Assembly (NCBI RefSeq): GCF_014202935.1
Contig: NZ_JACHHX010000001.1
Coordinates: forward strand, 1 to 64,000
DNA from: Rehaibacterium terrae
GTDB lineage: Bacteria; Pseudomonadota; Gammaproteobacteria; Xanthomonadales; Xanthomonadaceae
Direction: 5' to 3'
DNA length: 64,000 nt
The notes beneath the pieces are model-generated. The model was not told where the DNA came from. It saw only the letters and a list, made by a program, of their open reading frames with translations, and did no database searches. Shown one piece after another: positions 172-60,868 of the stretch (position 1 is its first letter; every line of letters begins with the position of its first letter). Position numbers and translations under genes: made by a program.

Positions 172-595
172 TTGGGCGGGCAGGAGCCCGCCCGCTCTTC
201 CCGGGGCCCCTGAGCGGCGGCGGGCGCGCGGAGGAAAAGCCCGAAGGGTCGCCGGCAAGGATGCCGGCGACGTTTGCGCCGGCACAGGATGTGCCGTCGC
301 AAACGCCCGCAGCGCGACCGCGTACCTTTCGGACAGGAAGTCCGAAAGGCGCCGCTCCGGGGGCGAGCCGGATCAGGCGAAGCACGGCTTCGCCCCGGCG
401 AGCGCCAGCACATGGATGTGCTGGCCGGCGGGCGCCACAGGGATGTGTGCTCGCGAGGCACCGTCCGAAGCCGCGTTGGGCAAGCAAAGAAAAGTAACCC
501 GGGCGCCGGCGGGCGAACGGAACAACCGGCGCGTAGCGCCGGCCAGGTCGCGATCAAACCACACCCTGTAGAGCGGCTTCAGCCGCGACCGGCGA
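172..595 (+). repeat. Dispersed hairpin-array repeat, copy 1
   Basis: This stretch has no credible gene and is closely similar to 60422-60868. It holds successive hairpins: 174-181/186-193 (loop AGGA), 249-256/263-270 (AAGGAT), 272-285/291-304 (14 bp, one mismatch, AGGAT), 325-334/340-349 (10 bp, AGGAA), 376-383/387-394 (ACG) and 404-411/418-425 (ATGGAT). It contains GCAAGCAAAGAAAAGTAACC near 478-497 and ends in a Xanthomonadales-type REP-like motif (GAGCGGCTTCAGCCGCGACC, 571-590). Small reading frames on both strands run through it, but they follow the palindromes and lack ribosome binding sites. The hairpins are seen directly; a role as RNA is inference. Confidence 0.75.
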
Positions 596-10293: not shown

Positions 10294-10439
10294 CAGGCTG
10301 TCGAAAGACAGCCTGGCGGGCGAGCCGAGGATGGCTCGCATCGCGAATCAATCGCTGCAAGCGATTGATTCGTCGGAAGCGAGTCCGGACAGGCGCCGGA
10401 CTCGCGACTTGAAAAACGCACTGGATGTGCGTTTTTCAA
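10294..10439. repeat. Array of five consecutive perfect hairpins
   Basis: Five perfect inverted repeats follow each other with almost no spacing: 10294-10302/10307-10315 (9 bp, GAAA loop), 10320-10326/10333-10339 (7 bp, loop GAGGAT), 10344-10356/10360-10372 (13 bp, 3-nt loop), 10379-10388/10396-10405 (10 bp, 7-nt loop) and 10409-10421/10427-10439 (13 bp, loop TGGAT). The stem sequences are unrelated to each other, so this is not one unit copied five times. The last hairpin has an A-rich left arm and T-rich right arm and could terminate transcription on either strand. The array lies 70 bp before the lipoprotein gene. I infer a structured RNA or a complex REP element. Confidence 0.7.
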
Positions 10440-37098: not shown

Positions 37099-38950
<1,852 letters not shown>

Positions 38951-38976
<26 letters not shown>

Positions 38977-39248
38977 GTCGCTGGTTTCCGTCAGTTCGTC
39001 ATGGCTTGGAGGCGGCCACGTCGGTTTCTAGCCTCGGCCTTCCCGGCCTCGCCAAGAAACCCGGCCCGCGCCTTCCATGGCGCGGGCGCTCACCGGCGCG
39101 GACTGCCATTCAAGGCAGTCCGCGACAGCCCCGGTTCGCCCGCCACCGACCACGATCACGTCATAGCTGTGCATGTCGCTGGTTTCCGTTGATTCGTCAT
39201 GGCTTGGAGGCGGCCACGTCGGTTTCTAGCCTCGGCCTTCCCGGCCTC
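38951..39248 (-). repeat. 100-bp direct duplication covering the mnmG start
   Basis: 38951-39050 and 39149-39248 are the same 100 bp with three clustered substitutions (38992-38994). The first copy contains the first 9 codons and the ATG of mnmG plus 74 bp of leader; the second copy repeats this upstream, including the ATG. The unit-to-unit distance is 198 bp. The upstream copy can start a short minus-strand peptide identical to the MnmG N-terminus, which soon diverges. Confidence 0.85.
39065..39124 (-). repeat. Two hairpins between the duplicated mnmG leaders
   Basis: Perfect hairpins 39065-39072/39079-39086 (8 bp) and 39097-39107/39114-39124 (11 bp). On the minus strand, which is the mnmG sense, their loops read ATGGAA and TTGAAT; the first carries GGA like the loops of the dispersed repeat at 172-595. 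Confidence 0.55.
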
Positions 39249-39323
39249 GATGCGGGCACGGCCAAGTCGTTCACCGCGCTCCGCGCGGGCGGCCGTCATC
39301 GGCCGGCAGTGTAGCGCTGGACT

Positions 39324-57346: not shown

Positions 57347-57423
57347 GCGCCCGTAGCTCAGCTGGATAGAGTACTACCCTCCGAAGGTAGGGGTCACAGG
57401 TTCGAATCCTGTCGGGCGCGCCA
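57347..57423 (+). tRNA. tRNA-Arg (anticodon CCG)
   Basis: A 77-nt cloverleaf: acceptor GCGCCCG/CGGGCGC with discriminator G and encoded CCA (57421-57423), D-arm AGCTCAGCTGGATAGAGT, anticodon stem CTACC/GGTAG around loop CTCCGAA (anticodon CCG, reads CGG) and T-arm with GGTTCGAATCC. Immediately downstream are repeats that contain its last 13 bases. Confidence 0.97.
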
Positions 57424-57775
57424 TCCTCCCTCGCTTCGCCCGCGCATCCCACCGCGCCGCGCGGTGCGCCGCGCCCTCCATGCCGTTGCCCGCGCCTGCG
57501 CGGGACTGCCGTCCCGACGGGCGCGCCACTCCTCTTCGCTCCGCCCCTACGCCCGGCGCGCTGCGAGCCCATCGCTTCCCCGTCACCTCGCACGCGCCTG
57601 CGCGGGACTATCGTCCCGACGGGCGCGCCATCCTCCCTCGCTTCGCCCGCGCATCCCGCCGCGCCGCGCGGTGCGCCGCGCCCTCCATGCCACTGCCCGC
57701 GCCTGCGCGGGACTGCCGTCCCGACGGGCGCGCCATCCTCCCTCGCTTCGCCCGCGCATCCCGCCGCGCCGAGCG
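57411..57775 (+). repeat. Tandem repeats derived from the tRNA-Arg 3' end
   Basis: Units begin at 57411 (within the tRNA), 57516, 57618 and 57723, i.e. 105, 102 and 105 bp apart; the last is cut off near 57775. Each starts with the tRNA tail GxCGGGCGCGCCA. Units 1 and 3 are nearly identical, unit 2 is diverged. Before each extra tail is a GGGAC/GTCCC hairpin that would sit where the T-arm lies in the tRNA. The layout is like the rtT repeats after E. coli tyrT. Confidence 0.88.
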
Positions 57776-60343: not shown

Positions 60344-60421
60344 CGCGCGGCCCTCCGCATCCGAACATCCCCAGTCGATCGCTCCGCCGAAACGAAGGCC
60401 GGTCTTTCCGCTCTTGCTCGT

Positions 60422-60868
60422 GGCGGGCAGGAGCCCGCCCGCTCTTCCGGGGCCCCTGAGCGGCGGCGGGCGCGCGGAGGAACAGCCCGAAGGGTCGCCG
60501 GCAGGGAGGCCGGCGACGTTTGCGCCGGCACAGGAGGTGCCGTCGCAAACGCCCGCAGCGCGCACGCGCACCTTTCGGACAGGATGTCCGGAGGGCGCCG
60601 CTCCGGGGTGCCCTTTCTTTTGGTTACCTTTTCTTTGGGCAAGCAAAGAAAAGTAACCCGGCCGCCGGCAGGCGGACGGAACCCCCGGCCTGAAAGGCCG
60701 GCCAAATCGCGACAAACCCACAGGCGCACGAAACACCCGGCGCTACGCGCCGGCAGGTCGTGACGAACCCGCAGGCGCACGGAGCTCCGGCCTGAAAGGC
60801 CGGCACGATCACGACGAACCCAATCCAGCCCACACATTGCAGGAGCGGCCTCAGCCGCGACCGGAGAA
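60422..60868 (+). repeat. Dispersed hairpin-array repeat, copy 2
   Basis: This is the second copy of the element at 172-595. Hairpins: 60422-60428/60433-60439 (AGGA), 60495-60502/60509-60516 (AGGGAG), 60518-60531/60537-60550 (AGGAG) and 60571-60580/60586-60595 (AGGAT, two G.U pairs). Every loop keeps GGA although flanking loop bases differ from copy 1. The right part (60685-60810) has three imperfect units, each with a CCGGC/GCCGG-type hairpin and a CGACAAACCC- or CGACGAACCC-like tail, and ends with the REP-like AGGAGCGGCCTCAGCCGCGA. The element lies between cheB and a convergent membrane protein gene. Confidence 0.75.

Follow-up and report, generated by a model that had tools for sequence, protein, structure and literature searches.

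Hairpin arrays in the window

The window analyzed here is a 64,000-nt stretch of Rehaibacterium terrae, and copies of one dispersed element lie at its start and toward its end. A cut copy occupies positions 1–132 on the minus strand, with GGA loops on hairpins hp3, hp2 (25–46), and hp1 (104–120); the contig start falls inside it and cuts off its match (1–56, minus, 46 bits) to R1, our covariance model of hp2–hp4, which was built from eight copies. Copy 1 (172–595, plus) forms a divergent pair with this reverse copy, which lies to its left. The earlier note had taken positions 1–600 as a single element; they actually hold two divergent copies (minus 1–132 and plus from 172). Copy 2 is a full copy on the plus strand (60418–60658), with hp1 at 60422–60439 identified by sequence and hairpin detection and hp2–hp4 at 60486–60599 (hp3 60517–60551, hp4 60574–60592) matched by R1 at 117 bits.

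All GGA-loop hairpins of copy 1, five strong (stem ≥6 bp, ranging from 7 to 15 bp) and one weak, lie on the plus strand. The first, hp1, reads GGGCGGGC-AGGA-GCCCGCCC (174–193) and was recovered by hairpin detection, folding, and the shuffle test. It is followed by hp2, TCGCCGGCA-AGGA-TGCCGGCGA (249–270), which has at its base a small helix, CCC GAA GGG (240–248), whose three pairs each show double-sided changes; by hp3 (271–305), with a 14–15-bp stem and the loop CA-GGA-TG; and by hp4, CCTTTCGGAC-AGGAA-GTCCGAAAGG (325–349). Farther 3′ lie a hairpin detected with no GGA in its loop, GGCGAAGC-ACG-GCTTCGCC (376–394), and hp5, GCCAGCACA-TGGA-TGTGCTGGC (404–425), which was recovered by hairpin detection, locus alignment, and the shuffle test. 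Six hairpins, nearly all with GGA loops, had been reported: five GGA-loop hairpins stand as strong, whereas the sixth (hp6, CACA-GGGA-TGTG, 436–447), read from the sequence, has a stem of only 4 bp and does not form in the minimum-energy fold of copy 1. Both stretches previously quoted as matches to the CsrA/RsmA consensus (around 410–420 and at 437–446) are present in the sequence.

Dinucleotide shuffles of positions 172–450 gave a mean of 0.03 GGA-loop hairpins and reached five in 0 of 2000 trials; the minus strand of the same interval has none with a stem of ≥6 bp. Copy 2 has three GGA-loop hairpins (0/2000 shuffles), and in the remaining window they occur at 0.13 per kb per strand. Fold z-scores were −7.3 for positions 172–480 and −9.1 for one intact copy located elsewhere. 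These results confirm the noted GGA-loop hairpins, and the finding is larger than first described.

Other repeats and hairpins were observed in the window. Copies 1 and 2 are each closely followed downstream by a REP-like palindrome of GTAG type (GAGCGGCTTCAGCCGCGACC or similar; 566–590 and 60840–60868), and palindromes resembling GAGCGGCTTCAGCCGCGACC also occur near elements of other genera; the one at 566–590 looks like a REP of the GTAG type, separate from copy 1. A terminator-like hairpin, TTGAAAAACGCAC-TGGAT-GTGCGTTTTTCAA (10409–10439), also has GGA in its loop, with a 13-bp hairpin just 5′ of it (10344–10372). Close direct repeat pairs are found at 57407–57753 and 38933–39249 (140 nt at 92%; 119 nt at 93%), the former beginning where a tRNA-Arg gene ends.

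A repeat family with conserved GGA loops

BLAST located the element at ∼20 places in the 2.9-Mb genome, in line with the earlier claim of a repeat spread through it. Many copies are at contig ends, as expected because the repeat breaks assemblies. Within Xanthomonadaceae, R1 matched 55 of 119 genomes, representing 33 of 54 genera, with scored copies per genome reaching 31. The named R1-positive organisms were all Xanthomonas (Xanthomonas albilineans, Xanthomonas sp. F10, and Xanthomonas sp. NCPPB 1128), which identified the family as Xanthomonadaceae.

We aligned 57 distinct copies. Standard pairs filled 94.1% of pair cells compared with 72.7% when shuffled, and double-sided changes numbered 393 compared with 103 (0/500 shuffles for both); neither shuffles nor slid registers approached the observed pairing. 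Stems were replaced wholesale between copies with pairing retained, and one-sided changes in them were rare; the earlier note had named non-compensatory stem changes as a ground for refuting it, and on this check it stands. Variation in hp1 and in the outer helix that closes the domain was also pairwise consistent. On its second such check, the conservation of the GGA loops, it stands for hp3 (110 of 111 copies) and hp2 (102 of 111), where the loop frame is nearly always CA..TG or CA..CG, but not for hp4, which has GGA in 28 of 111 copies and elsewhere mostly GCA, GTA, or GAA.

The hp2 and hp3 stems contained six G-U cells versus 2533 Watson-Crick cells, and stems seem to change as blocks, via gene conversion or palindrome copying, in contrast to the stepwise change usual in RNA evolution. 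Given this block-wise change, the few G-U pairs, and the rarity of one-sided changes, covariation alone is no proof of selection at the RNA level, and a strict RNA-only reading of it was softened because G-U intermediates are nearly absent from the GGA stems. The conserved GGA loops are a stronger argument for RNA function than the stem covariation.

The sequence CAGGAUG is the CsrB repeat. CsrA targets are defined by a GGA in the loop of a hairpin (PMC7366521), and the genome has a single canonical RsmA, located beside alaS and carrying the VHREEI arginine. The most economical reading of the loop sequence is that the GGA loops are putative CsrA/RsmA sites. CsrA was found in 13 of 14 R1-positive genomes and in 324 of 370 overall, a comparison without power. 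The four CsrA-less genomes found (G135, G486, G457, and G673), which represent only two families, had elements without GGA hairpin pairs; neither comparison was counted as support.

Every examined copy was intergenic. Many copies formed inverted pairs 330–430 bp apart, and solo copies among tandem genes showed no sense preference (nine sense and 14 antisense, tallied by hand from the gene-context table with orthologs included). No conserved promoter was found for the element copies. At orthologous sites in several Xanthomonas species, the core was kept and the flanks were not. Species-specific variants common to different sites (GTGTGC/CACAAG in G006 and GCGCGC/GCGCGAG in G210) point to gene conversion among copies, and conservation at a single site is therefore no proof of function at that site. 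One locus (L115, in G237) fuses the flanks of two other element loci (L063 and L064/L101) at the element and apparently marks a breakpoint where the repeat mediated an inversion or rearrangement. We also noted, in G006, an inverted element pair with an IS110-family transposase gene inserted between its two arms (L060:1990–3222); the orthologous locus L093 is without it.

A REP/MITE-like mobile or recombinogenic DNA element is a serious rival to an RNA function even though we rate it as unlikely. Its hairpins would arise when replication or transfer leaves the DNA single-stranded, and the GGA loops, with the same small likelihood, would be the recognition letters of a putative nuclease or transposase and not RsmA sites. 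The dispersed intergenic copies in inverted pairs, the unbiased orientation to genes, the near-perfect stems with block changes and few G-U pairs, and the copies at contig ends and at the apparent rearrangement junction all agree with it. Yet the loop motif is not arbitrary but fits the CsrA/CsrB consensus, the same loci are occupied in several Xanthomonas species with no look of fresh movement, and no enzyme gene appears to be associated with the element. REP/BIME families (e.g., the GTAG REPs of Stenotrophomonas and Pseudomonas) similarly consist of many dispersed intergenic palindromes, often in inverted pairs. The element differs from them: a REP is a single GTAG hairpin, whereas the element folds into several domains over ∼300 nt, with a pseudoknot and conserved GGA loops, and by inspection no GTAG tetranucleotide is conserved beside hp2–hp4 in the aligned copies.

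A predicted pseudoknot module at the 3′ end

The predicted 3′ pseudoknot, which was absent from the earlier note, is the most widely conserved part of the element. In intact copies, the sequence 3′ of hp4 runs TGCCC-TTTCTTTT-GGTTACCTTTTCTTTG-GGCA-AG-CAAAGAAAAGTAACC (copy 2 as the example), and TGCCC pairs with GGGCA of the hairpin loop to give an H-type pseudoknot. In copy 2 (plus strand), the two strands of stem 1 (S1) are TGCCC at 60609–60613 and GGGCA at 60637–60641, assigned by sequence and S1 pairing; stem 2 consists of a 5′ arm at 60622–60637 and the 3′ purine arm CAAAGAAAAGTAACC at 60644–60658, both assigned by sequence and module parsing. Loop 1, TTTCTTTT (60614–60621), is the predicted third strand, matching the purine arm in parallel.

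The S1 strands covary, with seven complementary types in Xanthomonadaceae (TGCCC/GGGCA, TGGCC/GGCCA, TGTGC/GCACA, CGCGC/GCGCG, TGTCC/GGACA, TCGCC/GGCGA, and CGTGC/GCACG). Loop 1 matches the purine arm as its parallel Hoogsteen partner at 310 of 324 positions, the paired tracts including TTTCTTTT/AAAGAAAA, TTTCTCTT/AAAGAGAA, TTCTCTTT/AAGAGAAA, and TTTCTTCTT/AAAGAAGAA; within asymmetric tracts, the parallel match holds at 282 of 296 positions versus 192 of 296 for the mirror match. A permutation test of the third strand over nine distinct forms gave a modest 36/2000, owing to the resemblance of the nine forms to one another and to parser mis-trimming of two. On the GGA strand, G-U pairs are frequent and A-C mismatches infrequent in distal stem 2 (the count of zero A-C mismatches in one stem-2 tally was partly built into the parser), which indicates that the GGA strand is the folded strand.

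The module is predicted to form a major-groove triple helix on an H-type pseudoknot. Telomerase-type pseudoknots contain a major-groove triple helix, and the strand order and parallel polarity seen here fit such a fold. With telomerase RNA the element shares the order S1a-L1-S2a-S1b-S2b and a loop 1 of pyrimidines that runs parallel to the purine arm; unlike it, the element is a bacterial repeat, its triplex predicted from covariation alone. The module also weighs against a DNA element, in that stem 2 tolerates G-U and a parallel pyrimidine third strand with a pseudoknot is a typical RNA fold. At some loci (L040, L067, L086, L103, and L111), small hairpin insertions (TTGACCAGCC..GGCTG.. with a near reverse complement) break loop 1 and/or the purine arm, and among these the two kinds of insertion sometimes co-occur in one copy and are mutually complementary.

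Compared with intact copies, copy 1 is a chimera in which the 5′ half of the predicted 3′ pseudoknot, kept by copy 2 and most relatives, has been lost. A module specific to the copy-1 type (354–475, plus; delimited by alignment with L010–L020 and against copy 2) stands in place of S1a, L1, and S2a, the substitute being ∼115 bp with hp5, hp6, and a GCGAAGC-ACG-GCTTCGC hairpin. Downstream, the 3′ pseudoknot arm CAAAGAAAAGTAACC persists as an orphan S2b (485–499, plus), its partner strands missing from copy 1. This type, without S1a/L1/S2a, is the commonest in its own genome, and pieces of the replacement module were found in other genera and families (L004–L006).

The 3′ module pattern was present in 39 of 370 gammaproteobacterial genomes (in the GTDB sense) and gave no match in ∼200 genomes sampled outside Gammaproteobacteria; both searches together placed it in ∼30 gammaproteobacterial families. 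The GGA array (R1) was present in fewer class genomes (14 of 370). At loci outside Xanthomonadaceae, S1 pairs at four or more of five positions in 32 of 37, and at least one GGA hairpin, typically two, lies 5′ of the module in 15 of 37. Others of these loci have a TTTGAG..GAGTT hairpin in place of GGA hairpins, and in many families the module occurs without GGA hairpins. R1, trained on Xanthomonadaceae copies only, re-found the GGA array directly 5′ of modules that had been gathered independently by pattern (L164, L173, L180, L181, and L184). Paraburkholderia megaplasmids hold at least 38–40 copies of the module, a point in favor of a mobile DNA element; phages gave no match to the module, and plasmids gave no full-element match.

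Further observations concern single genomes and loci. The module stands behind another conserved hairpin (TGTTTGAGC..GCGAGTTC) in Variovorax and in other Burkholderiales-like and Pasteurellaceae-like genomes (L133–L184, L153–L156; e.g., L156:600–760). One class genome (G765) combined 12 CsrA-family matches with many module copies. In another family of the order (L006:1300–1575), CATGGATG hairpins stand, without the rest of the element, in repeated terminator-like spacers beside a 5S rRNA gene.

Because the pseudoknot is spread more widely than the GGA array and also stands behind other hairpins, the element might instead be an RNA 3′-end or processing element whose triplex pseudoknot would protect or pause read-through transcripts, with the GGA hairpins accessory or species-specific. 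Pseudoknot triplexes stabilize RNA, as in the MALAT1/PAN ENE and telomerase RNA. We nevertheless regard this as improbable: the solo copies are antisense to their neighbor genes in about half of the cases, and the commonest copy type of the R. terrae genome has no pseudoknot while its GGA hairpins have been kept and added to.

Known relatives and a possible role as an RsmA-binding RNA

The best Rfam matches of the element belong to the CsrB/RsmY/TwoAYGGAY clan. TwoAYGGAY RNA (RF01731, clan CL00106; Weinberg et al. 2010, PMC2864571), for which no function is stated (PMC2864571), is likewise gammaproteobacterial and has paired neighboring hairpins with AYGGAY-like loops on the same strand; hp2 and hp3, with the GGA frequencies given above, are two such adjacent loops. 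The TwoAYGGAY model (cut-off 43 bits) gave no match in the window and scored family members below the cut-off (L031, 38.8 bits; G197, 40.9 bits), passing it only in the relative L139, where the GGA pair of a neighboring copy scored 54 bits. Relative to TwoAYGGAY, the element has further parts (hp1, hp4, an outer helix, and the 3′ pseudoknot/triplex), and it is a multi-copy repeat. By its sequence and predicted fold, it is best viewed as an extended TwoAYGGAY relative; Rfam assigns that motif to the CsrB/Rsm clan.

Several candidates were set aside. A sub-threshold match to Bacillaceae-1 RNA (RF01690) on the reverse strand of hp2–hp3 was rejected, being below cut-off, on the opposite strand, and probably a mirror effect of the paired hairpins. 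Sub-cut-off Rfam miRNA/sRNA matches were taken as chance, except those of the CsrB clan, which were kept because strand and place agree. The counts of CANGGATG and its reverse in the genome (327 vs. 54) were not used as evidence, since a TAG occurs in the reverse and an ATG start context in the pattern itself, and ACATGGATGT was abandoned as a specific marker, occurring at low number in nearly all of 143 class genomes. A literature search for the sequence motifs, repeat papers, and pseudoknot repeats returned nothing relevant, with partial coverage that does not prove novelty.

Like the sponge RNAs CsrB/CsrC and RsmX/Y/Z/W, the element has several GGA-loop hairpins in a CA(N)GGA(U)G frame. Family copies gave weak same-strand matches to the RsmX, RsmW, and RsmZ models of Rfam, and matches to the CsrB/RsmX/Y/Z/W models were all below cut-off. 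Those sponges are single-copy sRNA genes, as a rule controlled by GacA or UvrY, whereas the element is a dispersed repeat that adds long perfect stems and a pseudoknot and is without a known promoter. No CsrB/RsmX/Y/Z homologs have been reported in Xanthomonas (PMC7694677). An RsmA-binding sRNA from the comEA 3′ UTR of X. campestris, RsmU (sRX061), resembles the element as a Xanthomonas RsmA partner with several GGA motifs, and it kept RsmA binding after GGA to AAU changes; by description it is set apart as a single locus reported conserved in Xanthomonas only (PMC7694677).

Building on the observed repeat family, fold, loop conservation, pseudoknot with third-strand covariation, and strand polarity, we propose, with confidence a little short of even, that the dispersed intergenic element encodes a structured RNA with CsrA/RsmA sites on the GGA strand. 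Its outer helix would close a multibranch domain containing hp2 and hp3 (with hp1, hp4, hp5, and hp6 in some copies), and hp2, hp3, and sometimes other hairpins would display CA(N)GGA(U)G loops. At the 3′ end of intact copies there would be an H-type pseudoknot, with its U/C-rich loop 1 placed in the stem 2 major groove to form a triple helix. We infer that transcription would occur by read-through or from a putative promoter, that RsmA/CsrA dimers would bind the paired GGA hairpins of a transcribed copy, and that the RNA would be protected by its knotted 3′ end. Jointly, the many copies might then titrate RsmA or place it on a host transcript. The earlier note's reading of the repeat as a multivalent RsmA-binding RNA is supported in part.

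That these are instead selfish or decaying repeats without present function, homogenized by gene conversion and palindrome-copying mutation, would suit the species-specific variants common to orthologous loci and the block exchange of stems with G-U intermediates nearly absent, but it is highly improbable, leaving unexplained the invariant GGA loops, the coordinated changes in three pseudoknot strands, and the retention across ∼30 families. The proposal of an RNA with RsmA-type sites has a broader form, which we consider rather doubtful: a Gammaproteobacteria-wide multi-copy noncoding RNA family, spread horizontally or by recombination, with a 3′ triple-helix cap and a swappable central cassette that decides the partner. 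GGA hairpins would recruit CsrA/RsmA in many lineages, and TTTGAG/GAGTT hairpins would recruit another partner in Burkholderiales and Pasteurellaceae-like genomes. The scattered copies of Xanthomonadaceae, a family without classical RsmX/Y/Z, would act as a genome-wide RsmA sponge.

RsmA of Xanthomonas is a global regulator of virulence and motility that has no such reported sponge homolog (PMC7694677). A multi-copy repeat with conserved RsmA-type loops would be a candidate for the missing RsmA antagonist, and would mean that binding sites of a regulator can be distributed over a genome by a repeat family. Independently of this, the covarying, predicted triple-helix pseudoknot, present in ∼30 bacterial families and not covered by a full-length Rfam family, would be well suited to biochemical study and represent a new structured RNA class.
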